The notes under the pieces are model-generated. The model ran no database searches, was not told the DNA's origin, and worked only from the letters and a program-made list of their open reading frames with translations. Shown piece after piece: positions 2,902-21,749 of a stretch of DNA of 57,279 bases (positions within the stretch are counted from its first letter, which is position 1; each line of letters begins with the position of its first letter). A program made the translations under genes and the position numbers. Source of the stretch: a virus; the IMG/VR virus record IMGVR_UViG_3300021963_006667, positions 1-57,279 of that record; one strand, given 5' to 3'.

Positions 2902-4920
2902 ATGAACGTTGTTTATGTGAACTACACTGTAAGAGACAGCGTATTTGATTATGCATGGCTCTCATTTAAAACCTACGTCGAAGATCACTATAAAGGCACG
3001 GCGAATTGGCATTGGCATTATCCAATCAGCGATTCCCGTGCCGATAGTCCAGAAGAACTAGCACAGAGAATATTACGACTTGACCCAAAGGTTGTGATGT
3101 TCTCTGTTTATGTTTGGAACGTCGGACTATCAAGAGAAGTTGCTCGAATCATCAAATCGCTTAGTCCCGAAATACACCTCGTATTTGGTGGCCCATACTG
3201 TGAGTACAAAGAAGATCCTGAGTACTTCACAAAATACCCATACATAGACTTCACTTGCCAGACGGACGGATACGGAGAACCTTTCATCAACGAGTTCCTC
3301 TATCAGGTAGAGACGGATCAAGACTGGAACAAGGTACCATACATGGTTCGAAAGGAAGGATACAGTCCTGTAACTTTCAACAAGCGTCAGTTTGAATGGC
3401 CGAAGAGAATCTTTGAGCGCAACTCTGACTACCTTCAAAAGGTAAAGGACGAACGCACCGGTTCCATCACCCTCATGACGATCTATGAGACGCAGCGCGG
3501 ATGCCCATACGGATGCACGTTCTGTGAATGGAGTGGCGGTATCAACTCAAAGGTTGCGTTTAAGCCAAGCGAAGATGTGATCGAAGACTTCACATGGCTC
3601 GCTAAAAACGGTTTCCTTGAGGACCTGCACATGGTAGAAGCAAACCTTGGCCAACTCGACAGGGACGTGATGCTCGTCGAGGAGTTGTGTAAGATCAAGG
3701 CAGAGTATGGAGTACCGAGAGACGTTATCCTTGCAGGACTCAGCAAGTCAAAGAAGTCAAACGTATATAAGATCGACAGACTTCTGGCTGCATCAGGACT
3801 TTCTAACGGATTCAAAATCTCGATGCAGGACATGGATCCACAGGTACTCAAGAACATCGAACGCGTGGACGAACCTTGGGAAAAGCAGTTCAAGGCATAC
3901 AACGAACTACGTGACGAGTTCGGAATCAAGCTAAGAGCCGAGATGATTCGTGGACTTCCTGGCACCACGCTCAATAGTTTCTATGAGCAGGCCGGAGAGA
4001 TGGCAAAGCACGGAGTTTTCTGGGATAAATACACGTGGCATCTTCTGCCTACGTCTCCTGCATCAAACCCTGAATACATGCAGAAGTTTAGCATCGAGGC
4101 GATAGACCTGATGACCGACTCAATGAAGGGTTCTGCATTCAACGCAAAGATGATCGACGAAGACAAGTTCACGGAGATCGGCGGACTCATCAACGATCAG
4201 AGATTCATTCAGCCGTCAAAGATAGTCGTATCCACCATGTCGTATACAAAAGAAGACTACGCCGAGATGGTCGTTTCGGACGGGATCATATTTGCCATGG
4301 AGACCGAGGGCTATCTGTCCAGGATAACAAAGTATCTCGACTCGAACGGGGTGCCACATTCGGTATTTTACAAAAGGTTCTATGATACCTTCATAGACCA
4401 GAAGTATCTTCAGCCTATCCAATTTACTGTGCTTAAAGCAATTATACAGCAGGCGTTGGACAAAGTACATCAAAAAAGCGCGGCTCCCTTCGAATACTAC
4501 AAACTCGAAGGGTTGCCATGGAACATCTACGCAAAGATCCCAACACTTATCAACATCATGATCAACGTCAACCGGGTTGAGTTCTACACCTCGATTCTTA
4601 GGTGGATCGTCGATGAGTTTGGAAGCGATCCTAAGTTGGATGACCTGATCGGTTGGTCCATGAATTCCGTGAAGTGGATAGACTACGACCCAACGAAACC
4701 GACCTCGTTCGTAACACAGTTTGACTGGACTGCGAATGAGTTGGTTGAAGGAACCTATATCAACACACCTTCAGACACACTCTACTCGAATGAAAACATG
4801 GACATCGATTGGCACCTATTGACGATGGAAAATCGAGTGAAGCAGTATTTTATTCGGCTATGCGCATTGCATGGTAGTAACAAGATGTTTGAGCATTTGA
4901 GGGTTACCCATGCTGAATAA
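2902..4920 (+). CDS. Radical SAM protein with B12-binding-type N-terminus
   Basis: 672 residues. The N-terminal ~140 residues look like a cobalamin-binding Rossmann domain of class B radical SAM proteins: VVMFSVYVWN, then HLVFGGPYCE, a predicted-site phrase ending DGYGEPF. No DxHxxG cobalt-ligand motif is evident. The radical SAM core has the [4Fe-4S] motif RGCPYGCTFCEW (C201, C205, C208) and a later MIRGLPGTT segment typical of the B12-radical SAM family. The C-terminal ~250 residues are not recognised. Known relatives do methylations, ring contractions or rearrangements; the substrate here is unknown. ATG start after AAGGA. It opens a tightly packed island of enzyme genes placed within the fibre genes. 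The radical SAM assignment is firm, the B12 assignment probable. Confidence 0.88.
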   Translation: MNVVYVNYTVRDSVFDYAWLSFKTYVEDHYKGTANWHWHYPISDSRADSPEELAQRILRLDPKVVMFSVYVWNVGLSREVARIIKSLSPEIHLVFGGPYCEYKEDPEYFTKYPYIDFTCQTDGYGEPFINEFLYQVETDQDWNKVPYMVRKEGYSPVTFNKRQFEWPKRIFERNSDYLQKVKDERTGSITLMTIYETQRGCPYGCTFCEWSGGINSKVAFKPSEDVIEDFTWLAKNGFLEDLHMVEANLGQLDRDVMLVEELCKIKAEYGVPRDVILAGLSKSKKSNVYKIDRLLAASGLSNGFKISMQDMDPQVLKNIERVDEPWEKQFKAYNELRDEFGIKLRAEMIRGLPGTTLNSFYEQAGEMAKHGVFWDKYTWHLLPTSPASNPEYMQKFSIEAIDLMTDSMKGSAFNAKMIDEDKFTEIGGLINDQRFIQPSKIVVSTMSYTKEDYAEMVVSDGIIFAMETEGYLSRITKYLDSNGVPHSVFYKRFYDTFIDQKYLQPIQFTVLKAIIQQALDKVHQKSAAPFEYYKLEGLPWNIYAKIPTLINIMINVNRVEFYTSILRWIVDEFGSDPKLDDLIGWSMNSVKWIDYDPTKPTSFVTQFDWTANELVEGTYINTPSDTLYSNENMDIDWHLLTMENRVKQYFIRLCALHGSNKMFEHLRVTHAE

Positions 4921-5479
4921 GATTGTATTAGCGATGAATATAGAGGTCAACGAGGTCTATGATATTAGAAAGCGAACCAACGGCAGATTAAGTAACGCTT
5001 TTGTCGAGTATTGCATCGAAGACTCGTATGTCCGAGAGCGTGCACTCAAGAATCTTGTCGCAAATAAAGTCGATCGTAAGGTTGTTGAAGCGTTCAAGGT
5101 TTTAGACCTACAAACAGTATTTTCTTCCGTTCCAGATGACGAGTTAGTTGACTTTTTTGAGAAGATGTGTTATAAGATAAACGATATGATCTATATTAAG
5201 TTTGAGGCTGACACGTTTAAGGGATTCGATCTTCACGGAAAGATTGTATTGCCAGTAGTCTATTCTGGTAATCGTCCGGTTACCAAACATAAGTACATTG
5301 GATGGGTGACTCCTCATAACATCGAACACCTGTTAGAGCATGAGAAGATCACGGAAGACGTTGCAACCAAGGTGCAACTAAAATACGCAGAGATGCTACG
5401 TAAACATAAAGACGAATTCGACGTATTTTTTGACGGCTCTCCTATAGAGGAAGTTTTGGAGTATATCAACAATGATTAA
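4910..5479 (+). CDS. Unknown protein in the radical SAM island
   Basis: 189 residues, no family recognised. It is charged and soluble-looking, with no signal peptide or membrane segment. A helical N-terminal half is followed by a segment with VLPVVYSGNRPVTKHKYIGW and a helical acidic C-terminus. Its ATG overlaps the end of the preceding radical SAM gene by 11 bases, and its own end overlaps the next gene by 8, so translation is probably coupled. Position suggests an accessory or substrate-recognition protein for the upstream enzyme; this is inference only. Confidence 0.75.
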   Translation: MLNKIVLAMNIEVNEVYDIRKRTNGRLSNAFVEYCIEDSYVRERALKNLVANKVDRKVVEAFKVLDLQTVFSSVPDDELVDFFEKMCYKINDMIYIKFEADTFKGFDLHGKIVLPVVYSGNRPVTKHKYIGWVTPHNIEHLLEHEKITEDVATKVQLKYAEMLRKHKDEFDVFFDGSPIEEVLEYINND

Positions 5480-6485
5480 TTGGGCATTCACTTGGTCTTC
5501 ACGTAGAGCACCTGCGTGGGAAAACTGCAACGACGCAATGAACCTTGCCGTTGGACCTGAGTGGGTCTTTGGTGACTACTACCTACCGGTAAACACTCGG
5601 TATTCCGGCTCTCCTCTGAAGGAGTTTAAGGACGATGAGCGCATAAAACTTCTTAACGCACCGGCAGTAGATCAGTTCGAGGCGGAAACGTTCAAGTACG
5701 TCATAGAAGAGAATAGGTCTGGATACAACCTAGAGGTAGCCGATCGTGTAGGACATTTGATCCTTAAGGAACACGCGACTCCAGACATTTTACTCACCGA
5801 ACAAAATAGTCGTGTCATAGACCTGGACGAGGTTTACAAATACCTTCAGGAATATGATTGGGTCGCACTCGGAATCAAATTCAACAACATCGAGATCAGC
5901 GACAAGACGATCATGGCGAAGTCGTTCTTCTATGCCCGCGATAAGGATCTGAAGTTGGTAAACCTGTCAGGTCAGAATCAACCTTACAACGACGTCTCAT
6001 CGATCCCTGCTATAACGTATTGTGTGTTTAAGAAGACGAAGAACGTGGGTCTGGTCAACTGCATTGTAAACCCACACCTTGTTTCCGTTCCGCATATGGA
6101 TTCTAGGGTGTATGGAGATAAGCATCACGTGTTCGCACTCGACGCGTTTGACTCGACGATCGAGGACTACTTTCTTAAACCTACCATCGTTGGAAGCGAC
6201 ACTAACATCATCAACAACAACGTGATATTCACGAACGTGCAGTTCCAAATGTTGGAATATGAGGCGTCATTTTACCACATCCGTAATAAGTCGTACATAC
6301 CCTTTCCGAGAACGATTAAAACAAATTTAGGTGTAACTACGATCGGAAACGTGATAAGTATAAACCCAACTCGCCATTACGGGTACATATCCATAGAATA
6401 CGACGTTGACTCTATGATAAATAGCTATGGAGTTGCCTCTCAGGTAGGCAAACACAAAATTGAATACACCGTAATTAGAGGATAA
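5472..6485 (+). CDS. Unknown protein in the radical SAM island
   Basis: 337 residues with no recognised domain. It starts MINWAFTWSSRRAPAWENC and is rich in aromatic and Asn residues, with alternating hydrophobic beta-like stretches and no CxxxCxxC, Walker or methyltransferase motif. There is no membrane segment or signal peptide. It overlaps the preceding gene by 8 bases and ends 5 bases before the 64-residue His/Cys protein gene. It could be a structural component, a carrier or a partner enzyme; sequence alone does not decide. Confidence 0.75.
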   Translation: MINWAFTWSSRRAPAWENCNDAMNLAVGPEWVFGDYYLPVNTRYSGSPLKEFKDDERIKLLNAPAVDQFEAETFKYVIEENRSGYNLEVADRVGHLILKEHATPDILLTEQNSRVIDLDEVYKYLQEYDWVALGIKFNNIEISDKTIMAKSFFYARDKDLKLVNLSGQNQPYNDVSSIPAITYCVFKKTKNVGLVNCIVNPHLVSVPHMDSRVYGDKHHVFALDAFDSTIEDYFLKPTIVGSDTNIINNNVIFTNVQFQMLEYEASFYHIRNKSYIPFPRTIKTNLGVTTIGNVISINPTRHYGYISIEYDVDSMINSYGVASQVGKHKIEYTVIRG

Positions 6486-6490
6486 CTATC

Positions 6491-6685
6491 ATGGTTGCCG
6501 ACGTAACAAGCACCTTTACAGCGAATAATACGGTCACCCCGACGAAGGCAGTAGGTTCAACCATCGATGCCGCTTCCTTTAGAACGATGGTGAACACGCT
6601 CGACGCGCTGATTCAACACAGTCATACGTTCACCGATGACTACACCTCAAACTGCCAGTGCAACTGTCAGCGAGGCAGCATCTAA
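6491..6685 (+). CDS. Small HxHT/Cys protein, candidate modified substrate
   Basis: 64 residues, ATG preceded by GAGG at good spacing. The Thr/Ala/Val-rich N-terminal part leads into a short helical-looking segment (FRTMVNTLDALIQ), then HSHTFTDDY with H43 and H45, and a C-terminal tail with three alternating cysteines, C55-Q-C57-N-C59, ending QRGSI. The same helix-HxHT-x-D module occurs twice in the 123-residue protein at 11359. The stop codon directly abuts the GTG start of a radical SAM/SPASM gene. Small size, a terminal CxCxC tail and the adjacent maturase-like gene resemble RiPP precursors. Against this, HxH motifs also occur in phage fibre tips, where in T4 gp37 they bind iron. It may be both a virion peptide and a modification target. 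Function unproven. Confidence 0.72.
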   Translation: MVADVTSTFTANNTVTPTKAVGSTIDAASFRTMVNTLDALIQHSHTFTDDYTSNCQCNCQRGSI

Positions 6686-8335
6686 GTGACCGACAATTAT
6701 GTGAACGTGAAAAGAGTTCTAAGCGAAGCTCAAAAGAAACGCTTAGAAAACCATACACCGTCTGTTGTCGAACAGGATGGTAAATTAGTCACAACCTTTG
6801 AGACGATAAACATCTCAGGTAAGGGACAAAAGACAAACAAACTCATCACGGTCCTTCCCGCAGCGCAGGAACAGGCTGTACCGTTTGCGGATGCAGAGTT
6901 TTTGTATCGTGACCTGATACAGGTTAACGCGATGTTAACGAACGCGTGTAACCTCAGTTGCTCCTACTGCTACGAACAACACAACAAAGACTTCGGTAGA
7001 TTTACAAAAGAATCCCTTAAGCAAGTCTATGATTGGATGAACTCCCGTAACAACGGTAAGAAGAAGGTGTTCCAATTTTTTGGAGGTGAACCTCTCATCC
7101 ACAAGCCTTTGATCAAAGAGTTTATCGAGACTTATGACGAAGAGTTGTCGGGCAACTACAAAGATTATCGTGGCACCTACATTTCGATGTGTACAAATGG
7201 ACTTCTATTAAATGACGAGTTCATCGAGTTCTATTTCGGTAAGCCATACACGCACATGATGTTGAGTCTCGATACGCTGAATTCAGCAATCGATCACAGA
7301 GAGATCACGCCGGCTCAGTTAAACAAGGTTCTCAAGAGTATAGACAAGATCGTGGAAGTTCTTGGAGATGACGCGAATCGACTCGTGATTCGTGCCACCC
7401 TGTCACAAGAGACCTCGCGTGACATGAAGAACTTCATCGAGACGCTGTATGAGCATGGTGTTAGAAACATGGTTGTTCATCCACTTGTACTCGACTCAAA
7501 GCATGGTTACATCTCATGGAAAGATGAGAACTGGCAGAACATGAGAAGTTCTATCTTCGGTGCCCTTGAGAAGTATGATGACCTTTACATCAGATTCTCT
7601 GAAGGCGTTGGCCTGAAGGAAGATAGTAACTGTATGGTCGGTTCACACATGGTTGCCATCGACGCATCCGGTGACTTCTCGGGTTGCTACTTCTTCACCA
7701 ACCAGAAGTCTAACGGTGCAGACATTGCCGTTCTCGGAAACGTATTCCAGGACCGAGTATACATAGATCGGTACAAGAAGTTCCAAAGCGCCTATCAGGA
7801 GATGTTCGATACCGAGGAGCAGTGCAGAACCTGTGACTATCAGGATGCCTGTTATCAGTGTCCTGCCGGTAACATGGATACCGGATCGAGAATCTTCCGG
7901 CCTGACGATATGTGTCAAAAGATCGTAAAGCTCTACGTCGACTTTCAACACGACGTCGCAAAGAAACTATTCATGCGTCACGTGAAGAAGAGATTCGACC
8001 GAGTTGAAAAGCACGGTGAAAAGGTATTTGCCGCCGAGTTGCAATACTTTTATGATAAATTTAATGGAGAAGGTGTCGATGATTTTGAACATTATTTGCG
8101 GATTGATTTGCCTCATTATTCTGATGTCATTCGTGCCTGGTCCGTGGACGGCAAAACCGAAGCCACCGATCTACATTCGCTCTACAACATCCTCGCAAAA
8201 AGATTCGACAAGCCAAGAATCGATATTGAAATCACATCTGACTTCGTAAAGTGTTATTACATCCAATGCATATCGACGATCATCTTCGACAAGAACAGAA
8301 TGAACGAAGTCAAACTTACGACTTTGCTGGAATAA
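6686..8335 (+). CDS. Radical SAM/SPASM-type enzyme
   Basis: 549 residues. The GTG start lies immediately after the preceding stop codon. The radical SAM motif is ACNLSCSYCYEQ (C88, C92, C95), followed by FFGGEPLIH, the SAM-binding GGEP motif, and MCTNGLLL. The C-terminal part carries a SPASM-like cysteine set: SNCMVG, then DFSGCYFF, then CRTCDYQDACYQCPAGN and a last DDMCQK. SPASM proteins bind auxiliary [4Fe-4S] clusters and commonly modify peptides or proteins (thioether, C-C or epimerisation reactions, or formylglycine formation). The ~150 residues after the SPASM region are extra and unrecognised. The abutting small His/Cys protein is the obvious candidate substrate, by inference. Confidence 0.9.
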   Translation: MTDNYVNVKRVLSEAQKKRLENHTPSVVEQDGKLVTTFETINISGKGQKTNKLITVLPAAQEQAVPFADAEFLYRDLIQVNAMLTNACNLSCSYCYEQHNKDFGRFTKESLKQVYDWMNSRNNGKKKVFQFFGGEPLIHKPLIKEFIETYDEELSGNYKDYRGTYISMCTNGLLLNDEFIEFYFGKPYTHMMLSLDTLNSAIDHREITPAQLNKVLKSIDKIVEVLGDDANRLVIRATLSQETSRDMKNFIETLYEHGVRNMVVHPLVLDSKHGYISWKDENWQNMRSSIFGALEKYDDLYIRFSEGVGLKEDSNCMVGSHMVAIDASGDFSGCYFFTNQKSNGADIAVLGNVFQDRVYIDRYKKFQSAYQEMFDTEEQCRTCDYQDACYQCPAGNMDTGSRIFRPDDMCQKIVKLYVDFQHDVAKKLFMRHVKKRFDRVEKHGEKVFAAELQYFYDKFNGEGVDDFEHYLRIDLPHYSDVIRAWSVDGKTEATDLHSLYNILAKRFDKPRIDIEITSDFVKCYYIQCISTIIFDKNRMNEVKLTTLLE

Positions 8336-9369
8336 GATCTGTTACGATCTATCTTGGCGATACCTGTAACTTTGATTGCGTCTATTGCGACCGTGCATAT
8401 ATTAAGCACGACATTGGTTCACAGAATCTAAACAAGGCAGACTTCGACGACATCATAGAGTTTATGAAGGTCGTAAAGGAACAGGCGAAAGACCTAAAGG
8501 CAATCTCGTTCCATGGCGGTGAACCGTTCTTGTATGTAAAAAGAATGGACGAACTACTTGACGCGCTTGATCCGATCTTCGGAAAAGACATGGAGTACTA
8601 CATCACATCGAACGGTTCGAAGATCGTCGAGAACGAATGGTTCTTTCAGAAGTGGCCAAAGATCCATATCACCCTGAGCTACGACTTTAATTATCAGCTT
8701 GTCAATAGGGAATATGTAGACCTAAAAGCAATCTCGGAAGTGATCTATCGTAACGACTGCTACATGATGTTTCAGTTCGTGATTCCACCAGATGGGTTCC
8801 ATGAGGATACTTTAGCCGAGGTGATCAGATCGTGTAAACTTGCTCGTTGTGATACGATTAACATCATTCCGCTTCGACACCATCGTGGTGCAAGAAAGTT
8901 CAAAGTCCTTATTGACGATTTTAACATGAAGTGGTATAGTGTTTATTTGATGCGGTTCATCCATACTTTGTATGTCCAGGGAATCACGCTCAACATAGAT
9001 GGCAACTATCACGGAATCGACAAGCAATATCTCAACAATCACAGCAAGATGATCCTGAGTCCGGATGGATACGTGTATCCAGAGTTTGACTACCTTGAAT
9101 ATAAGCGAAAGGAATTCAGGATCGGCAAGTGGAAGGGTGGAATCGAACTCGACCGAGTCAAGGACGAGAACCAATTCATTCTTCCAGGTTGCGTGACCTG
9201 CCACATGAGGGACGCGTGCGGGTTGAAGTACCTATACAAGATGTTTGATGAAGAACCGAAAGGAAACTGCGTCGACTTCTACACAACGATCAACCTGATG
9301 GTGAAACACCTTCACGCCTTGAAACAGAAGCCCACGTTGATGCATTGGATTGGAATCGGAGATGGATGA
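8266..9369 (+). CDS. Radical SAM enzyme with short twitch/SPASM-like C-terminus
   Basis: About 367 residues from the ATG at 8266; a GTG at 8251 would add five. Neither has a clear ribosome binding site, and both lie inside the preceding gene, giving an overlap of about 70-85 bases. The core motif is DTCNFDCVYCDRA (C34, C38, C41 from the ATG), followed by ISFHGGEPFLY and YITSNGSK. The C-terminus has GCVTCHMRDACGLKY and a later GNC, a shortened auxiliary-cluster region like the twitch domain. The substrate is unknown. The long overlap implies translational coupling with the SPASM enzyme upstream, suggesting the two act in one pathway. Confidence 0.88.
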   Translation: MHIDDHLRQEQNERSQTYDFAGIRSVTIYLGDTCNFDCVYCDRAYIKHDIGSQNLNKADFDDIIEFMKVVKEQAKDLKAISFHGGEPFLYVKRMDELLDALDPIFGKDMEYYITSNGSKIVENEWFFQKWPKIHITLSYDFNYQLVNREYVDLKAISEVIYRNDCYMMFQFVIPPDGFHEDTLAEVIRSCKLARCDTINIIPLRHHRGARKFKVLIDDFNMKWYSVYLMRFIHTLYVQGITLNIDGNYHGIDKQYLNNHSKMILSPDGYVYPEFDYLEYKRKEFRIGKWKGGIELDRVKDENQFILPGCVTCHMRDACGLKYLYKMFDEEPKGNCVDFYTTINLMVKHLHALKQKPTLMHWIGIGDG

Positions 9370-9871
9370 TCTGTACAAAGCTGCGTGCAGGGTGAAGACC
9401 ATCATGCCGATGAAGTATTACGACTGGAAGCAGTGGCACGAATGGCCGTATCGAACGATCGGTGACCATATCGTCCATGACGAAACCATCATCGATGTCG
9501 GTGCCGGCTGTGGGTTCTTGAGCATGCACCTTCTTATGACCGGTAAGTGTGACAAGGTTATTGCGTACGATACCCGCGAGAACATGTGCGAGTTTATGTC
9601 GTTGCTAAGTAATACGTTGGGTCTGGCCACACGCCTTGAAGTAAGGTGCGAACCGTTTCAAAGTAACCGACACGACAACTTGACCGTCTCGACCAGACTC
9701 GGGTTTTCAAACCTGCTACTCAATAACAAGGCTCAGACTATAACTATGGCTCGTACGAGAGAGTGCGAACCTATCATGAGATACGTCGAAACTCCAGATG
9801 ATTGGAACGAGAAGGTCGTTACGAGAGATGATGGATTTACTATGAGGTTGTTATGGAACTATCGAGAATAA
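9362..9871 (+). CDS. SAM-dependent methyltransferase-like protein
   Basis: 169 residues from the ATG at 9362; a TTG at 9350 would add four. It has a Rossmann-type motif I (IIDVGAGCGFLS), followed by a probable motif II ending in an acidic residue (KVIAYDTRENM). It is short for a class I methyltransferase, and the usual motif IV (D/N-P-P-Y-like) is not evident, so it may be a minimal, degenerate or non-catalytic member. It overlaps the upstream radical SAM gene by 8 bases and the next gene by 19. Context suggests methylation or SAM/SAH-related help to the radical SAM enzymes; that is inference. Confidence 0.65.
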   Translation: MDDLYKAACRVKTIMPMKYYDWKQWHEWPYRTIGDHIVHDETIIDVGAGCGFLSMHLLMTGKCDKVIAYDTRENMCEFMSLLSNTLGLATRLEVRCEPFQSNRHDNLTVSTRLGFSNLLLNNKAQTITMARTRECEPIMRYVETPDDWNEKVVTRDDGFTMRLLWNYRE

Positions 9872-10224
9872 TTCTACTCTATAACGATGAATTCGAGATC
9901 CCACTCGAAACCGTTTACGGAGTGGTGTACATGGTTCCAGGATTAACGAAGCAGTTTCCCTGGTGGATTCGTCGGTTCTGTATTGAAGGCTATGACTATA
10001 ATAGTCCAGACTTTGAAGTCGTAGGAACAGGAGTTTCATCCGTAGTCGGGACACCATTAACGGAGAAGGCACACGAGTATCGTAAATCGATCTTCGGCCA
10101 ACGATGGATCGAAGATCTTAACTATGAGATCGTCTCAACCTTTCCTCCGCTTAGAGGGGTTAGCGTTCAGGGAGACGACTACACTCTTGATTCGGATTTA
10201 ATGAGGATACTACAGAATGTCTGA
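9853..10224 (+). CDS. Unknown small protein in the radical SAM island
   Basis: 123 residues, ATG preceded by GAGG. Aromatic-rich, with FPWWIRRFC and an acidic C-terminus; no family recognised and no membrane segment. It overlaps both neighbours (19 bases upstream, 8 downstream), so it belongs to the same translationally coupled run. In size and position it could be a peptide-recognition or partner protein, but no RRE-like (PqqD-like) pattern could be identified by eye. Confidence 0.7.
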   Translation: MELSRIILLYNDEFEIPLETVYGVVYMVPGLTKQFPWWIRRFCIEGYDYNSPDFEVVGTGVSSVVGTPLTEKAHEYRKSIFGQRWIEDLNYEIVSTFPPLRGVSVQGDDYTLDSDLMRILQNV

Positions 10225-11353
10225 TGAGGGCGAAGAGTTCCGTAAGTTTAAAGACCACAATACGTACTTTGTGACAGAAGACGCGTTGATGCCACTGCAT
10301 CATGATATAACGTTTAGCCCGACTCGTAAATACTATTGTGGCGCAAATTGTCAAGTTTGTTACATCAAGAAGAAACTAAAGGCACATCTACCGTATTACG
10401 CCGAAGCCATACCCGAAAAGATCACGGTCGAAGACGAAAAGAGATGGTTCGAGATTTTTGAATACTTCTACGTGATTCGAGTAGTCGATGACCTGAAGTT
10501 TTTGAAGGAACACTATCCTCACATCTATGGATGGTACAAAGAACACGCCTCGATCTTTGAGTACGGTATGACTGACAACGCGATCGTTCAGCAGCATGAA
10601 ACTCTCATGGAGTTGGACATGAAGAGTTTGTCCGAGGTCGCTCTGAGCGAAGAGTTCATGAACAAGGTAAACTCGAAGAAGAACTACAACAGGGTGATGG
10701 AGATCCTTCAGAGTTACATCGACAAATACGACCTACACAAGATCAAGGTAATCAAGACTACAAACGAAGAGTTACCTTATCATGCGAGGGAGTTGGTCGA
10801 GTGGATCAACAATAAAGGAATCGTTACGTCTCTGCATAATGACTATCGTAAAACCAATGTAGATGACAACGAACTTGGTAACATTGACCATGACTTAGCC
10901 GGACTCTTCGACTATCAGAATAGTCACGTCCTATGTTACAACGACCGAACATATCAGGTCTATCGTGGATCGTTGCACTTATACGGAGATCGATTCTTCT
11001 ATAGTATCGATGATGCCACCGATATTAACTGGGAACCGTTTCATACTATGAATGGCGACTTTGACCATCAGAAGTTTATGGTCGATATGATCCAAGGCAA
11101 GTTCGATCTGTACTCAAAGTTTGCCGATGAGTTGAAAAATGCTGGAGGTGGTACCGCCGAAAAATTTCGAAGCTACTATATAAATACTACTGACAGCTTT
11201 ATGGTGAACGGCGACTTCAACTTCATACCCAAGATCATGTTAAGTGAAAACTCGAAATACTACAACAAACTGGTAGAGCTTGGGTATCGTCCAACTGAGG
11301 TTGGGTTGTACCTACCTGGAAGCTCACCCAAACCAATCATCGGATTTAGGTAA
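10217..11353 (+). CDS. Minimal or degenerate radical SAM-like protein
   Basis: 378 residues. An exact CxxxCxxC motif, YYCGANCQVCYIKKKL (C41, C45, C48), lies near the N-terminus as in radical SAM enzymes, including the aromatic residue often found after the third Cys. The normal GGEP and xNG motifs are not visible, and the ~300 residues after the motif do not look like a standard TIM-barrel series. It may be a highly diverged radical SAM enzyme or a partner protein with one Fe-S cluster. A GGGTAEKF stretch occurs near residue 312. It overlaps its upstream neighbour by 8 bases and ends 5 bases before the second HxHT protein gene. Confidence 0.6.
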   Translation: MSDEGEEFRKFKDHNTYFVTEDALMPLHHDITFSPTRKYYCGANCQVCYIKKKLKAHLPYYAEAIPEKITVEDEKRWFEIFEYFYVIRVVDDLKFLKEHYPHIYGWYKEHASIFEYGMTDNAIVQQHETLMELDMKSLSEVALSEEFMNKVNSKKNYNRVMEILQSYIDKYDLHKIKVIKTTNEELPYHARELVEWINNKGIVTSLHNDYRKTNVDDNELGNIDHDLAGLFDYQNSHVLCYNDRTYQVYRGSLHLYGDRFFYSIDDATDINWEPFHTMNGDFDHQKFMVDMIQGKFDLYSKFADELKNAGGGTAEKFRSYYINTTDSFMVNGDFNFIPKIMLSENSKYYNKLVELGYRPTEVGLYLPGSSPKPIIGFR

Positions 11354-11358
11354 AGACA

Positions 11359-11730
11359 ATGGCATCATATTCAAATACGACATCGGTTGCTGTCGCGACA
11401 TCGCTAAGAACAACATATACAACACCGTTGTTGGCGCAAATTGCAAGTGGTAATACCGTGCAAGCGGCGCATATGACCATGCTTAAAAACTTTGCAAATG
11501 CGATCTTGGTTCATACGCATACGTTAACGGATTACTCACAAATTAAAGAATTTGGTAATACTAATGCTAGTGCGTTTACGGTTGATACTGTTCCCCAAGT
11601 ACCAAGCGCTAACGTCGGTGCAACATACACTGCTGGAAACGTAATCGGCGCGAACGAATACACCGAAATTAGAGTAGCTGTTGAAGCTCTAAGAGTACAC
11701 AGCCATACATGGGATGATGCAATAGTATGA
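11359..11730 (+). CDS. HxHT-repeat small protein, second candidate substrate
   Basis: 123 residues, with two copies of the module seen in the 64-residue protein at 6491: a short helix-like stretch followed by HxHT and Asp. Copy one is FANAILVHTHTLTDY (H52, H54); copy two is VEALRVHSHTWDDAIV (H114, H116) at the extreme C-terminus. It has no cysteines, unlike the 64-residue protein. The Thr/Ala/Ser/Val-rich composition resembles the neighbouring fibre proteins. Its stop overlaps the ATG of a radical SAM/SPASM gene by 4 bases, repeating the small-protein/maturase order seen at 6491-8335. It is either a virion or fibre component with metal-binding histidines, a modification substrate, or both. 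Confidence 0.7.
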   Translation: MASYSNTTSVAVATSLRTTYTTPLLAQIASGNTVQAAHMTMLKNFANAILVHTHTLTDYSQIKEFGNTNASAFTVDTVPQVPSANVGATYTAGNVIGANEYTEIRVAVEALRVHSHTWDDAIV

Positions 11731-13001
11731 TGCAACTACCTTGTTATGAACTCAGTGATGGTAGTTCGTTTTATTATGACTCTCACTCAAATACTATTTA
11801 CAACACAGAAGGCGAGCAATTAAGTTTGCCGCCTTCAAAAGCTATTGAATACTACGAATTAGAAGCAGCAAACCATGGGGTGGATTATAAGGTCAACAAC
11901 CCGTTTGCGATTCGTATCCTTCTCGGACATGCGTGTAACTACAACTGCACCTATTGCATGCAGAAAGATATTGGTAATCCGTTAGAGAGACCACAATCGA
12001 TTTATACCGAATCGTTTATTGCTAACATCAAGAAGAATCTAAACCTTGATAGGTTGAACAGAATTGAACTTTGGGGTGGAGAACCTTTCCTATATTGGAA
12101 AGACATGGTCGAGATCATGAAGTTCTTTGATTCTCCCAATAGAGAGTTCTTCATATCAACAAATGGTTCGGCATTTGTACAAAAACACGTTGACTTTTTC
12201 CAAACGTTGAAATCTACAATCTTAATCAGCTGTAGTCATGACGCTGTAGGCCAAAAAGAACTTCGTGGTGACGACATCCTTGAGAACCCAAAGAAGGTCG
12301 ACATCATTAAGAAGATGTTGGCTCTTCCGAATGTACAACTAGGGTTCTCGTCGGTGGTTAGCAATCAGAACCACGACCTATATGCAATCAACGACTACTT
12401 CAAGGAATTCTGTGACCGTGAAGGAATCGAGAACATGAAGATCACCTTCATCCCGGCAAAAAACTATGACGTTCATGACACAGAGATGGCTTCGTCGAAC
12501 TACATTCTGCGTGGTGAAAAGTTGAAAGCGTTCGCTCAACACCTATACGACTTCACACAAGATTCGTTCAACGATCGTACAAGATTCCTACGCAACAACA
12601 TCCTGTACTCGCCCGAGGGTGTGGTGGACTACGCTAAATTCCTGAGACAACAGACTCCGATCACGACCAAGTCTGGCTGTGGTGCAGACTCAAACGACGT
12701 TTTATCGGTTGACATTCAAGGAAACGTTCGCTTATGCCCGCACACCGATAGTAGCTTCATTGCTGGTAAGCTGGAAGATGTAGGTTCGGTAAAGATCAAA
12801 GGCATGGATCTTGCTCGTAAGAAGACTCACTGCATGAAGTGTCCGGTGAAACGACTCTGCAGATCGTCATGCCCTATCAAGTTTCCAGACCACGTGTTCT
12901 ACTCTAACTGCGCACTCGAGAAGGTCTGGTGGGGAAACATCCAACTTCACGCATTTAAATTATTATTCGGACAAACCGTGTCCATGAAAGAGGCAGCATG
13001 A
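11727..13001 (+). CDS. Radical SAM/SPASM-type enzyme
   Basis: 424 residues; ATGATG start overlapping the preceding stop. The radical SAM motif is HACNYNCTYCMQKD (C70, C74, C77), followed by ELWGGEPFLYW and FISTNGSA. The C-terminus shows a good SPASM pattern: SGCGADS, VRLCPHT, then CMKCPVKRLCRSSCPI and a final SNC, enough cysteines for two auxiliary clusters. Family members mature peptides and proteins. The immediate upstream neighbour is the HxHT-repeat protein, and the downstream gene (4-base overlap) is a DUF3050 protein, suggesting that the three work together. Confidence 0.92.
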   Translation: MMQLPCYELSDGSSFYYDSHSNTIYNTEGEQLSLPPSKAIEYYELEAANHGVDYKVNNPFAIRILLGHACNYNCTYCMQKDIGNPLERPQSIYTESFIANIKKNLNLDRLNRIELWGGEPFLYWKDMVEIMKFFDSPNREFFISTNGSAFVQKHVDFFQTLKSTILISCSHDAVGQKELRGDDILENPKKVDIIKKMLALPNVQLGFSSVVSNQNHDLYAINDYFKEFCDREGIENMKITFIPAKNYDVHDTEMASSNYILRGEKLKAFAQHLYDFTQDSFNDRTRFLRNNILYSPEGVVDYAKFLRQQTPITTKSGCGADSNDVLSVDIQGNVRLCPHTDSSFIAGKLEDVGSVKIKGMDLARKKTHCMKCPVKRLCRSSCPIKFPDHVFYSNCALEKVWWGNIQLHAFKLLFGQTVSMKEAA

Positions 13002-13744
13002 AACTTAACAAATCACTCATCGAAGAGCATACGTCGATGCTACGCAACCACTCGTTGCTCGTGACCAACAACATCCAAAGCAAAGACGACCTTCGAATCT
13101 TTATGGAACATCACGTGTTCGCCGTCTGGGACTTCATGTCTTTGTTGAAGACTTTGCAAAACGAAGTCGTTCCAAGCAAGACCCCGTGGATGCCCACCCG
13201 TGGGACACGTTCCGACATTGCAAGGATGATTAACGAGATCGTGACCGGTGAAGAGTCTGACATCGCACCAGGCGGAGGATCGATCAGTCACTTCGACCTA
13301 TATCTTCAGGCGATGCTTGAGGTGAATGCAGACACAAGTTCTATTACATCATTTTTGAAGAACCTAGAATGGTCTGGCACCATTCCATACCAACTTGCAC
13401 CAAAACCGGCAGAGAAGTTTATGCGAAACACGTTTGGTACCATTAATCGTGGACCGCACTGTGTTGCTGCTTCGTTTGCATATGGCAGAGAAACCATCAT
13501 TCCTGATATGTTCACTCGACTATTAACCCAACTCAATATCAGTCAACTTGATGCGCCAAAGTTTCATTATTACCTGCAGAGACACATTGAGGTCGACGGT
13601 GATGAACACGGTCCAATGTCTGAGCATCTCGTTGAATATTTCTGTGACGACGATCCTATTAAGGTTCACGAAGCCGAACAATCAGCGATTGCAGCCATCA
13701 AAGCACGTATTGACTTCTTCAACGACATAGAAAAGCTCCTGTAG
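12998..13744 (+). CDS. DUF3050-family protein, heme-oxygenase-like fold
   Basis: 248 residues. The sequence FMEHHVFAVWDFMSLLKTLQ, followed by PWMPTRG, MINEIVTGEESD, GGGSISHFDLYLQAM, and later FAYGRETIIPDMFTRLL and RHIEVDGDEHGP, matches my recollection of DUF3050. I expect this family to have a heme-oxygenase-like helical fold; some proteins with that fold are diiron oxidases. Conserved His and Glu residues suited to metal binding are present (H38/H39, GEE, SHF, EHG). The activity is unproven. It overlaps the radical SAM/SPASM gene by 4 bases and is the last gene of the island, ending 8 bases before a late promoter. Confidence 0.75.
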   Translation: MKLNKSLIEEHTSMLRNHSLLVTNNIQSKDDLRIFMEHHVFAVWDFMSLLKTLQNEVVPSKTPWMPTRGTRSDIARMINEIVTGEESDIAPGGGSISHFDLYLQAMLEVNADTSSITSFLKNLEWSGTIPYQLAPKPAEKFMRNTFGTINRGPHCVAASFAYGRETIIPDMFTRLLTQLNISQLDAPKFHYYLQRHIEVDGDEHGPMSEHLVEYFCDDDPIKVHEAEQSAIAAIKARIDFFNDIEKLL

Positions 13745-13785: not shown

Positions 13786-14118
13786 ATGGCTATTAAAGCG
13801 AATTTAGTTATCGATCAGGGCACTTCTTTTAGTGCTACAGTTGACGTAACAGATACTGGTGGTGCGGCTTATAACCTTACCGGATACACTACCGCTGCTC
13901 AAATGCGTAAGAATTATAACTCTTCAAGCGCCGTAACTTTCTCAACTTCACACAACGGTGCATATGGTCAAATCACGTTATCGCTCAACGCCGCTAATAC
14001 AGCGGTTCTTGAGCCTGGACGTTACCTATACGACGTTGAGATTACGTCTGGAAGTGCTATCGTTACTCGAGTCGTCGAAGGAATCGTAACTGTTACACCT
14101 GGAATGACGAGAATCTAA
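13786..14118 (+). CDS. Small virion protein, BppU N-domain-like
   Basis: 110 residues, all-beta in appearance: an opening strand region (VIDQGTSFSATVDVTD), YNLTGYTTAAQMRKNY and a C-terminal VEGIVTVTPGMTR. This pattern resembles the Ig-like N-terminal domain of phage baseplate upper proteins and small structural proteins I recall from marine T4-like phages. It is first in a late transcription unit of fibre genes with a strong AAGGAGAT site. It probably serves as a baseplate or fibre attachment protein; moderate confidence. Confidence 0.7.
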   Translation: MAIKANLVIDQGTSFSATVDVTDTGGAAYNLTGYTTAAQMRKNYNSSSAVTFSTSHNGAYGQITLSLNAANTAVLEPGRYLYDVEITSGSAIVTRVVEGIVTVTPGMTRI

Positions 14119-18836: not shown

Positions 18837-21749
18837 ATGTCAAAGAAATTAGTAGCAGATTATGTTTACGCTCCTGCCGGTGCTGGTGCGGGTACGATCA
18901 AGATTCCGGGTCGTTATTCACTCGAAAAGATTTTGTTGATCACAAATGTCACCAAAAACCAAGTGGTCTATAACTTTGCAGATGCACAGTACAGCGGAAC
19001 CACTACAACCTTTACCGCGGCTGATGACACAACGTATTTCCCAACTCTCACTCAGCGTGAAGATGGTTATACGACCATCACCCTTGCAATTAGCACGGCG
19101 ACTCATAGTTCCGGCGATAGACTTCAGATCTTTGTTGAGGATACACAGAAGCATCAACGCACAAAGCCTTGGGACTTTGGTACCGATGCGATCGAAAGAA
19201 CCCGTGTATCGAACCCAGAATCACTCATCGACGCCGACTTTGAATATGGTCTTCAGCCAACAAAGTGGGCAGGTTACGGTACCGTTCGTGGTTATCCATC
19301 TTCATACGAACTTCCTGGTATCGACCTTACGGTTACGGCGATCACCACCGACTTTAACGTGACAAGTACGACCAATAGTTTGATCACCGTTACAACAAGT
19401 GCGGTACATGGTATTACTGTTGGTCAGGTAATTAACTTGTCTGGATTGAATTCTGGTATCGCAGGATTTAGTAGAGCCGACGGTACTTACATCGTTAACA
19501 GCGTTCCGACCACATCTACGCTTACATACTTTGCGCGTGGTATCGTTGGTGTGTCGAACGGACAGAGCTTGCTTACCGACACTACGTTGATCAAAAAGGG
19601 CGACATTTATAGCGGCGCGTCTATTACGGTTTCTTCGGCAACGAGTAACGGCGCAAACCCATCGGTTATCACGCTCAACTTTACAAATCCACATGGTCTC
19701 ATTCCCGGAACAGCCATCCACTCTATAGTTGCTTCTGGTACGAACGCTGCACTTGCCTCAGGCCCGTTTGTTATTACTAGCGTGCCTTCACTCACCTCCT
19801 TAACGTACCTTGCTAGGGCAGGCGGTATCGTAGCAACCCCTGCCACCGTTACCCTTTACGCTATGTCAAACGCTACGATTCTTCATAGACCCGCAGACGG
19901 CGGAGTTATCCTTTCGACGAAAACTCCAACGTATGGTTCTTCAGTTATTCGTCAAAGTAAGAAGTATTTCCGCTATCAGTCCGGTAAAGGATTCCTTTGG
20001 TCGACCGGTACCTTATTCAAACCAAACTATGACGTGCGTTCAGTGACGGCAAGCGGCACGACCGTCGGTTCGACCATAACTATTACGACCGATGACATAG
20101 ATCATGGCCTTCAAGCCGGGGCGGTTATTGAGTTGGCTGGTGTTACTACGAGTGGATATAACGGCACTTATACCGTTGCGTCTATCACAAGCGACTACGA
20201 ATTTACTGTTCTTGCAACAGCTACTTTAGGTGCTACAACTGCTGTTCTAGGCTTAACAGCAACCGCTTATGTTAAGTCGTGGGATGGCGCGGCCGTTCGT
20301 GCGGGCATGTTTGACGATCAGAATGGGTTGTTCTGGGAATTTGATGGCGGCACACTGAGTGTAGTAAAAAGAAACGCCACAACGCAGCTTTCTGGAACAC
20401 TTTCAGTTACACAGAACTCCAATGCTGTAACGGGTTCGAATACCAGATTCACGCAACAGTTAAAAGCTGGTGACAAAATCGTTATTCGCGGTATGACGCA
20501 CTTCATTTCTCAAGTTGTATCTGATACTTCAATTAACGTTACTCCGGACTATCGTGGTATCAACGCATCAGGTGTAAAGGGTAACATTATTCGCGAAGTT
20601 CGCGTTCCGCAATCTCGATTCAATTTGGATAAGATTGATGGTACCGGCGATAGCGGATTTAATATCGATCTAAACAAGATGCAGATGGTTGGCCTGCAGT
20701 ACTCATGGTACGGTGCTGGATTTGTGGACTTTATGGCTCGTGGTCCAGACGGTAACTGGGTCTTTGTCCATCGAATGAAGAACAATAACGTCAACAACGA
20801 AGCGTACATGCGCTCTGGTAACCTTCCAGTTCGGTACTCGATCGAAAATGATAGCCCAGTGACTTCATTGTCCGGTGCAATTACCAACGTGCAAACTACT
20901 ATTCCAGTGACGGACCTATCGTACTTCCCTAGCGCTGGGACGTTGTACATCGATAACGAGATGATCAGTTATACCGGAAAATCCGCAGCGACCGGTGCAG
21001 GAAACTTTACCGGATGTACTCGAGCGGCAACGTTAACGCAGTGGCAATCTGGAACGAGTCAGACTTTCAGCGCTGCCGCTGCAGCGGCACATACCGCTGG
21101 AACGGGCATCATTCTGATCAGTAACACATGTTCTCCTACATTGAGCCACTGGGGTTCTGCGTTGGTTATGGACGGCGGTTTCACGAAGGACCGCGGTTAC
21201 ATCTTCAACTATCAAAGAGTTGGGGTATCACTCACTACGGCGGCGCAAACGGTATTCGTCATTCGTCTGGCACCATCTGTCTCTAACAGCCAAGTTGGAG
21301 CACTCGGTGCAAAAGATCTTCTTAACAGATCACAGTTGTTGCTTCAAGCAGTTGGTGTTTCGGTTTCAGGTGGTACTACTCCGGGTGCGGTTATCGTTGA
21401 AGGAATTCTAAATCCAAAAAACTTTACCGGTGCAACATGGCTCCCACTTAATACTGAAGCTGTCGGTGGTCAACCGAGTTTAGCCCAGGTCGCAACAGCC
21501 GTCACGTATTCTGCTGGTACCGTTGCGATCCCGGGTGAACAGGTATTTGCTTTCGCCGGTCCGTCCACTACAACTGGCGCCGTAAACGACCGCTTAGATC
21601 TTGATGAGTTGAAAGAACTTACAGGTGCTCCACTCGGAGGTGACTTTAAGTACCCAGATGGTTCTGACATCTTGGCAATCAACGTTCGTCTTACCGCTGG
21701 CACTGGTTCAGGTCACATTCTTCTTCGCTGGTCAGAAGCTCAGGCATAA
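18837..21749 (+). CDS. Large virion structural protein, fibre or baseplate type
   Basis: 970 residues. An N-terminal ~110-residue beta domain is followed by several ~90-residue modules of the type ITVTTSAVHGITVGQVINLSG, a repeated Ig-like/adhesin pattern. Residues ~520-680 contain a more globular domain with LQYSWYGAGFVDFMARGPDG and FVHRMKNNNVNNEAYMRSGN, which I recall from structural proteins of T4-like cyanophages. The C-terminus is again beta-rich. There is no enzymatic motif. It sits between fibre genes with short gaps and an AGGA-type site. Exact location in the virion is unknown. Confidence 0.8.
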   Translation: MSKKLVADYVYAPAGAGAGTIKIPGRYSLEKILLITNVTKNQVVYNFADAQYSGTTTTFTAADDTTYFPTLTQREDGYTTITLAISTATHSSGDRLQIFVEDTQKHQRTKPWDFGTDAIERTRVSNPESLIDADFEYGLQPTKWAGYGTVRGYPSSYELPGIDLTVTAITTDFNVTSTTNSLITVTTSAVHGITVGQVINLSGLNSGIAGFSRADGTYIVNSVPTTSTLTYFARGIVGVSNGQSLLTDTTLIKKGDIYSGASITVSSATSNGANPSVITLNFTNPHGLIPGTAIHSIVASGTNAALASGPFVITSVPSLTSLTYLARAGGIVATPATVTLYAMSNATILHRPADGGVILSTKTPTYGSSVIRQSKKYFRYQSGKGFLWSTGTLFKPNYDVRSVTASGTTVGSTITITTDDIDHGLQAGAVIELAGVTTSGYNGTYTVASITSDYEFTVLATATLGATTAVLGLTATAYVKSWDGAAVRAGMFDDQNGLFWEFDGGTLSVVKRNATTQLSGTLSVTQNSNAVTGSNTRFTQQLKAGDKIVIRGMTHFISQVVSDTSINVTPDYRGINASGVKGNIIREVRVPQSRFNLDKIDGTGDSGFNIDLNKMQMVGLQYSWYGAGFVDFMARGPDGNWVFVHRMKNNNVNNEAYMRSGNLPVRYSIENDSPVTSLSGAITNVQTTIPVTDLSYFPSAGTLYIDNEMISYTGKSAATGAGNFTGCTRAATLTQWQSGTSQTFSAAAAAAHTAGTGIILISNTCSPTLSHWGSALVMDGGFTKDRGYIFNYQRVGVSLTTAAQTVFVIRLAPSVSNSQVGALGAKDLLNRSQLLLQAVGVSVSGGTTPGAVIVEGILNPKNFTGATWLPLNTEAVGGQPSLAQVATAVTYSAGTVAIPGEQVFAFAGPSTTTGAVNDRLDLDELKELTGAPLGGDFKYPDGSDILAINVRLTAGTGSGHILLRWSEAQA

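Follow-up and report, generated by a model that had tools for sequence, protein, structure and literature searches.

Gene content of the HxHT_A to DUF3050 cassette

The IMG/VR virus record IMGVR_UViG_3300021963_006667 (positions 1 to 57,279; this whole stretch of 57,279 nucleotides is referred to below as the window) belongs to a T4-like myovirus and encodes a terminase, sheath, portal, head protease and major head protein. A gene cassette beginning at position 6491 includes, in order, genes for a small protein with an HxH motif (HxHT_A), two radical S-adenosylmethionine (SAM) enzymes (rSAM_A and rSAM_C), a methyltransferase-like open reading frame (ORF), an ORF that has no assigned family, a further radical SAM enzyme (rSAM_D), a second small HxH protein (HxHT_B), rSAM_B and a DUF3050 protein. 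The 3' half of the cassette, formed by HxHT_B, rSAM_B and DUF3050, is the subject of this analysis.

The three ORFs of the 3' half were confirmed on the + strand, as are the parts described below between positions 2902 and 13744, at 11359–11730 (HxHT_B, 123 amino acids), 11727–13001 (rSAM_B, 424 amino acids) and 12998–13744 (DUF3050, 248 amino acids). Both junctions are 4-base start-stop overlaps with the sequence ATGA (11727–11730 and 12998–13001), as an earlier, sequence-only reading of this DNA had described. In the 5' half, HxHT_A (6491–6685, 64 amino acids) consists of a helix, an HxHx3D motif and the C-terminal tail NCQCNCQRGSI, the CxCxC core of which (C55, C57 and C59) is encoded at 6653–6667. 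It is followed by rSAM_A (6686–8335), a radical SAM/SPASM protein, and by rSAM_C (8251–9369), a radical SAM protein with a partial C-terminal Cys set (C314, C317, C323 and C340). Between rSAM_C and rSAM_D lie a SAM methyltransferase-like ORF that scores below the Pfam cut-off (9350–9871) and the ORF of 123 amino acids with no assigned family (9853–10224). The methyltransferase-like ORF is not present in the related locus L001, where rSAM_C and rSAM_D overlap. rSAM_D (10217–11353; phrog_36229) has no Pfam match but includes an invariant CX3CX2C site (C41, C45 and C48). The claim that HxHT_B and rSAM_B repeat the order of a first pair was borne out for the succession of an HxHT gene and a radical SAM gene, the first pair at 6491–8335 being real, and holds no further.

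rSAM_B (phrog_1802) matches PF04055 with 46.2 bits (cut-off 29.5) and TIGR04085 with 27.2 bits (cut-off 27). The cysteines of its CX3CX2C site (C70, C74 and C77; 11934–11957) are invariant in 21 sequences, as are C318, C337, C369, C372, C378 and C382 of the SPASM region (C318 to C395; 12678–12911), with C395 nearly so. The SPASM consensus is CX9-15GX4C, followed by CX2CX5CX3C and a last C, and the spacing in rSAM_B is C318-X13-G332-X4-C337, then C369-X2-C372-X5-C378-X3-C382, with G332 invariant too. On its CX3CX2C site and SPASM Cys pattern, rSAM_B is assigned to the radical SAM/SPASM superfamily.

Anaerobic sulfatase-maturating enzymes (anSME) are SPASM enzymes that modify a peptide cysteine. 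The AlphaFold2 model of rSAM_B (mean predicted local distance difference test score, pLDDT, 90.9) is closest among solved structures to 5wgg (Z 22.2, 342 residues, 4.0 Å), which we take to be CteB, and to 5why (Z 21.5), both deposited under the title 'Thioether Bond Formation in the Biosynthesis of Sactipeptides', and anSMEcpe (4k36) is also near (Z 20.9). Both 5wgg, as judged by its title, and anSMEcpe act on peptide cysteine. As regards a leader-binding RRE domain, a trait of some peptide maturation systems, the N-terminus of the model comprises three strands and a helix, and its alignment with 5wgg begins at residue 1. When the rSAM_A sequence was compared with the PDB, 5wgg was the only match. 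The nearest NCBIfam model of rSAM_A is that of the PapB ranthipeptide maturase (NF047865, cut-off 340 bits), against which rSAM_A and rSAM_B score 114.6 and 44.8 bits, respectively, both below the cut-off. According to excerpts of PMC9413430, the links made by PapB run between a Cys and an Asp or Glu residue within CX3D/E motifs.

The DUF3050 protein matches PF11251 with 272.2 bits (E 5e-81). Seven candidate metal-ligand positions (E85, E86, H98, E165, H196, D200 and H204) are invariant in 45/45 DUF3050 sequences, and their spacing agrees with the CADD-based model in PMC4520260, excerpts of which place DUF3050 in the haem-oxygenase-like fold and describe its di-iron site as likely. The same family includes MgoB (PMC3298696, in excerpt). 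A search with the DUF3050 query of 2.9 million viral contigs revealed 61 loci, 33 of which include cassette genes, among them rSAM_B. An obligatory partnership with the cassette was rejected, as the other 28 phage loci have no cassette genes (26 have no radical SAM gene and two a weak one). The best reading is that the DUF3050 protein is a predicted di-iron oxidase and an optional member of the cassette.

The HxH proteins and conservation of the cassette

HxHT_B includes two modules, H52-x-H54-x3-D58 (11512–11532) and H114-x-H116-x3-D120 (11698–11718). The duplication that had been noted in it was thus found, and the Thr of the 'HxHT' varies among the relatives, hence the module is named HxHx3D here. 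Across 35 aligned relatives, G66, D120 and the four His of the two modules never vary, and D58 hardly does. HxHT_B is Cys-free in the window, as had been claimed, and also in 39 of 43 distinct HxHT_B sequences that were listed. In a 20-sequence alignment of HxHT_A (A1), H43, H45, D49, D50, C55, C57, C59, R61 and G62 are invariant; more distant members (for example L073 and L174) differ at the second Asp or at the Arg. The last 25 residues of HxHT_A include 3 to 6 Cys in 43 distinct sequences.

The HxH motif is thus invariant in both alignments. Excerpts of PMC6116203 and PMC11705849 describe how HxH coordinates iron octahedrally in the trimeric fibres and spikes of phages, and by this analogy the motif in the HxHT proteins is one that needs no radical chemistry. 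As predicted from position and motif, HxHT_A and HxHT_B are most likely small trimeric tip or fibre parts, with HxHT_B probably the virion partner of HxHT_A. The monomer model of HxHT_B (pLDDT 79.2) gave no match above Z 3.3 among solved structures, and in a viral structure library its single match below E 0.001 was a protein of phage RP12 with 125 amino acids, equal in length to HxHT_B of L174. An HxHT_B relative of 452 amino acids (L100:6620-7978) has its own Hint-like CFPAGS segment. Matches of the type HTHIQTD in L189–L200 were not counted as HxHT relatives; the L195 protein is a 2-oxoglutarate (2OG)-Fe(II) oxygenase (PF13759, 29.0 bits).

A search with the HxHT_A alignment found 40 viral loci, and 39 of them carry at least one cassette radical SAM gene in the stretch; in the fortieth (L069) the stretch ends 84 bases past HxHT_A. 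The check proposed in the sequence-only reading, whether radical SAM genes follow HxHT proteins in many phages, came out positive for the cassette as a whole. A tally of gene content took in 52 rows, 40 from the HxHT_A search, 11 from additional cassette loci and one from the window; three duplicates were dropped, which left 49 distinct stretches, other cassette loci being left out as coming from the same contigs or incomplete. HxHT_A is present in 48 of the 49, rSAM_A or rSAM_B in 47 of those 48, and DUF3050 in 27 of the 49. HxHT proteins therefore travel together with radical SAM enzymes across phages, and the cassette is kept in dozens of viral contigs, in agreement with the earlier view that chance placement is unlikely.

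The association holds at the level of the cassette and not as a private pairing of HxHT_B with rSAM_B. The gene immediately after HxHT_B is rSAM_B in no more than 6 of 40 stretches (the window, L068, L070, L072, L020 and L073) and HxHT_A in 17 of 46; in the remaining cases HxHT_B is located up to several kilobases upstream. Distance correlations of HxHT_B with rSAM_B (0.76), rSAM_A (0.75) and rSAM_C (0.77) are alike, and in this mirror-tree style comparison all families correlate (0.61 to 0.77; partial correlations 0.22 to 0.42), so that no HxHT_B–rSAM_B pair is singled out. In the minimal unit, L073, HxHT_A, HxHT_B and rSAM_B are adjacent in that order, and rSAM_A was not found in its 39.9 kb record. 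The window order would result if a block of rSAM_A, rSAM_C and rSAM_D were put between HxHT_A and HxHT_B in an L073-like order. L174 carries HxHT_B, HxHT_A, rSAM_A, rSAM_C, rSAM_D, rSAM_B and DUF3050 in that order. In L105 and L106, DUF3050 is located between rSAM_A and rSAM_C and not after rSAM_B, and on a 543 kb contig (L193:5779-13496) relatives of both HxHT_A, here with 12 Cys, and HxHT_B are accompanied by five radical SAM genes.

CxC tails and radical SAM genes outside the cassette

Viral contigs were also searched, independently of radical SAM genes, for DNA encoding C[DN]C[DN]C[DN]C[DN]C, which gave at least 120 stretches; a pattern with Ser codons served as the control. The counts for both patterns are among the matches listed, many of which are near-duplicates. 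The CxC motif lies in an ORF in 101 of 120 stretches, and a radical SAM gene is present in 71 of these 101, as compared with none of the 63 in-frame control loci (4/120 over all control stretches); an in-frame ORF was lacking in 19/120 CxC and 57/120 control stretches. Where the motif is C-terminal, a radical SAM gene accompanies it in 68 of 81 cases, always on the same strand (68/68) and downstream in 67, whereas an internal motif is accompanied by one in 3 of 20. The p of 1.4e-22 from Fisher's test overstates the certainty because the rows are not independent, and the cluster count is the safer figure: the 81 C-terminal CxC proteins fall into 19 clusters with no detectable mutual similarity, and in 17 of the 19, one of which is HxHT_A, at least one member is linked to a radical SAM gene. 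In the 13 C-terminal loci with no radical SAM gene, the stretch includes 43 to 3804 bases of downstream sequence, and the ORF in one of them (L307) resembles a non-coding ORF.

The converse relation was followed with 80 relatives of CxC-associated rSAM_B-type enzymes in bacterial genomes. A CxCxC motif in the last 25 residues of a neighbouring protein was found on the same strand in 54/80 and on the opposite strand in 6/80, and CxC directly before a Hint site in 6 loci; together a CxC tail or CxC-Hint protein is present in 59/80. Of the viral rSAM_B relatives, the best 80 were considered; 31 of these lie outside the cassette, and a same-strand CxCxC protein was recognised by eye in 14 of the 31. 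CxC tails thus predict radical SAM genes much better than radical SAM genes predict CxC tails.

At least one match to a tail-fibre PHROG was obtained for 7 of 10 CxC-tail proteins taken from different clusters and loci. In a fibre protein of Achromobacter phage JWF, a Hint domain (Hom_end_hint, 47.5 bits) is immediately preceded by NCNCDCNCNCSC, and the second gene downstream encodes a radical SAM protein 27% identical to rSAM_B; the situation in phage 2-1 is similar. Campylobacter phage CP220 has internal CxC arrays in a protein encoded some genes ahead of a radical SAM gene. Overall, the pairing of a radical SAM/SPASM gene downstream with a C-terminal CxC tail on phage proteins that are unrelated to one another constitutes a strong genomic pattern.

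Several further arrangements were observed. Fibre-like proteins in L109:6655-8106, L120:7664-9106, L476, L508–L511 and L517 include a CxC repeat followed immediately by a Hint site (CFPAGT), and Hint self-cleavage in them would place CxC at a free C-terminus. The internal arrays of CP220 gp140 (L108:5140-6744) are tandem CDCNYCTC arrays. In L145, L148, L153, L154, L166, L171 and L173, CxC or CACAC immediately precedes a long poly-Gly run near rSAM_B relatives, and poly-Gly adhesins offer a comparison for such proteins. Tandem small proteins that share an N-terminal DW module but differ in their Cys-rich tails lie directly before rSAM_B in L190:6209-6990. L223 offers a simple natural pair, in which the enzyme gene begins 16 bases downstream of that for a short CxC protein (104 amino acids). 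In L195, two ORFs (5307-6047 and 6339-6980), one for the PF13759 oxygenase and the other for a second protein judged oxygenase-like by eye, with no Pfam match, flank a CxC-tailed protein ahead of rSAM_B. This adjacency of a 2OG-Fe(II) oxygenase gene to a CxC protein gene may mean that an oxidase as an extra component is a recurring theme.

Proposed function and alternatives

We consider it probable that the cassette is a phage-encoded maturation system similar to those of ribosomally synthesised and post-translationally modified peptides (RiPPs), with HxHT_A as the most likely substrate and with rSAM_B and its sister enzymes rSAM_A, rSAM_C and rSAM_D acting on its CxC tail. The tail is the likely target because relatives of rSAM_B outside the cassette often adjoin CxC-tailed proteins, and in the cassette it is HxHT_A that has such a tail. 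The arrangement expected of a RiPP-type precursor, a conserved Cys core beside a radical SAM maturase gene, is the one found in the gene-content tally. The product would be Cys-based links (thioethers, as formed by the nearest structural neighbour) or oxidised Cys, and DUF3050, where present, may add an O2-dependent oxidation. HxHT_A and HxHT_B would probably be minor tail or fibre-tip proteins trimerising around metal via HxH, with the modified tail of HxHT_A displayed on the virion surface, where it would meet the host. HxHT_B should then be a partner or docking protein and not a substrate.

The cassette shares with the ranthipeptide and sactipeptide maturation systems (PapB and 5wgg) a radical SAM/SPASM enzyme whose gene adjoins that of a small protein ending in a Cys-rich core. 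It differs in its location in a phage tail region, the HxH fibre module of the candidate substrate, the CxC spacing, the presence of up to five radical SAM genes, and NCBIfam scores that are all far below cut-off. The pyrroloquinoline quinone (PQQ) pathway (PqqA, PqqE and PqqC) brings together a small precursor, a radical SAM/SPASM enzyme and a haem-oxygenase-like oxidase, as does the cassette, though DUF3050 is of the di-iron type with conserved ligands and the candidate precursor resembles a structural protein. T4 gp37, P2 gpV and R-pyocins have HxH iron sites in their fibres and the cassette likewise has HxH in small proteins of the tail region, but there the motif is coupled to radical SAM genes and, in the case of HxHT_A, also to a tail with CxC.

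Several observations weigh against this interpretation. The window tail of HxHT_A has no CX3D/E motif, and the residues between the Cys of HxHT_A tails vary (Q, N, A, E and D), so that no single acceptor residue fits. PHROGs assign neither HxHT_A nor HxHT_B to tail proteins, gene position and motif being the only grounds for placing the two in the virion, and HxHT_B accompanies HxHT_A in 46 of 48 stretches, which makes a role as co-substrate possible. No CxC-tail or CxC-Hint protein was found beside 21 of the 80 bacterial rSAM_B relatives. Among the 31 viral relatives outside the cassette, 13 have none, three have a single CxC before poly-Gly and one has its CxC protein on the other strand. 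Nor was a CxC tail protein recognised beside rSAM_A-like genes, more distant from rSAM_B, in human-gut 'Bacteriophage sp.' records or in Erwinia, Thermus and Phass-1 phages, so the CxC rule does not cover all phage radical SAM genes.

An alternative along the lines of the sequence-only reading takes HxHT_B, which has no Cys, as a substrate dedicated to rSAM_B and modified at His, Asp, Trp or Tyr, and has DUF3050 finish the product. Cys-free substrates of radical SAM/SPASM enzymes are known, and this reading can also draw on the translational coupling of HxHT_B and rSAM_B in the window and on the nearly constant company of the two HxHT proteins. However, the two genes are directly adjacent in few stretches, Trp is not a conserved column of HxHT_B, its conserved His and Asp are accounted for by HxH metal binding, and distant rSAM_B relatives accompany CxC tails and not HxHT_B. 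We regard this alternative as unlikely, and so, in equal measure, the view that CxC tails are virion ligands of metal or Fe-S clusters while the radical SAM enzymes act on other targets, such as host metabolites or RNA, the linkage being one of cargo shared by host-recognition regions. Metal binding is known for CxC as it is for HxH, and rSAM_C and rSAM_D have no assigned target. Radical SAM genes are also on record as phage auxiliary genes or flexible cassettes (PMC5332604 and PMC7029224, in excerpt). Cargo sharing would not give so tight a conservation of strand, order and cross-family recurrence of CxC with radical SAM genes, and the Hint domains directly after CxC would put CxC at a free C-terminus.

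Somewhat less improbable, but still doubtful, is a conversion of tail Cys into formylglycine-like aldehydes by sulfatase-maturase chemistry, giving a reactive adhesive tip. It finds support in the presence of anSMEcpe among the closest structures of rSAM_B and among the profile matches, in the annotation of the JWF enzyme as an anaerobic sulfatase-maturating enzyme and in the HxHT_A tails of A1, which finish C-x-C-x-R-G and recall the sulfatase motif C-x-P/A-x-R. Like anSMEcpe (4k36–4k39), rSAM_B would be a SPASM enzyme modifying peptide Cys. Against it, most other CxC tails have no Arg, the cassette has CxC repeats in place of CxPxR with no sulfatase gene seen there, 5wgg ranks equal to or higher than anSMEcpe against the rSAM_B model, and the alternating Cys spacing suggests cross-links. 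Within the preferred interpretation, maturation of the HxHT_A tail, we infer from the structural neighbours and the PapB and 5wgg matches, with the lack of CX3D/E in the tail weighed, that Cys-based cross-linking ranks first and formylglycine-type oxidation second.

That enzyme and tail are paired again and again among bacterial viruses of many unrelated kinds suggests that fibre tips may be finished in a manner not recognised before. With slightly less assurance than for the cassette itself, we lean towards the view that 'virion RiPPs' are widespread among phages and have gone unrecognised: unrelated fibre or fibre-tip proteins would have convergently acquired a CxC tail that a dedicated radical SAM/SPASM enzyme turns into a cross-linked or reactive tip for host recognition. 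Di-iron or 2OG oxidases, B12-binding radical SAM enzymes and methyltransferases would serve as extras, and some tails would be exposed through self-cleavage by Hint domains. If true, this would explain why several radical SAM genes occur in host-recognition regions of marine phages and would mean that receptor binding has a chemical component overlooked when hosts are predicted from sequence. Many natural Cys-modifying enzymes, with CxC substrates that are short and transplantable, would also become available. It would also give DUF3050 a candidate role and could be tested in cultured phages.

In the open-licence PMC articles searched, nothing was found that describes the modification of virion or fibre proteins of phages by radical SAM enzymes, or that ties radical SAM genes to phage CxC tails. 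The excerpts of earlier genome papers mention the genes in other contexts: 12 radical SAM genes of a marine T4-like genome are filed under Fe-S metabolism (PMC5332604), radical SAM gene cassettes are noted in the host-recognition cluster of pelagimyophages (PMC7029224), and a radical SAM protein is termed an unusual feature of Campylobacter phages (PMC3322345). For Ralstonia jumbo phage RP12, the excerpts of PMC5468394 give a set comparable to that of the cassette, comprising a radical SAM protein (ORF76), an Fe-S oxidoreductase (ORF77), MoaA (ORF79) and MgoB (ORF80), but list these enzymes apart under other headings and tie them to no substrate. Virion mass spectrometry of Ralstonia phage RP31 has been published there as well.

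The genes around the cassette include a tail-fibre-like gene on one side (20–2893) and tail-fibre-assembly and virion structural genes on the other (13786–14118 and 18837–21749). A gene for a B12-binding radical SAM protein (2902–4920), the fifth radical SAM gene of the window, lies upstream of the cassette and may be a further member; in L073 a gene of this kind occupies the corresponding position ahead of the minimal unit. The ORF just before HxHT_A (5472–6485), which has no assigned family, has homologues in the same place in L001 and L005, as found by blastp, and, by eye only, in L073.

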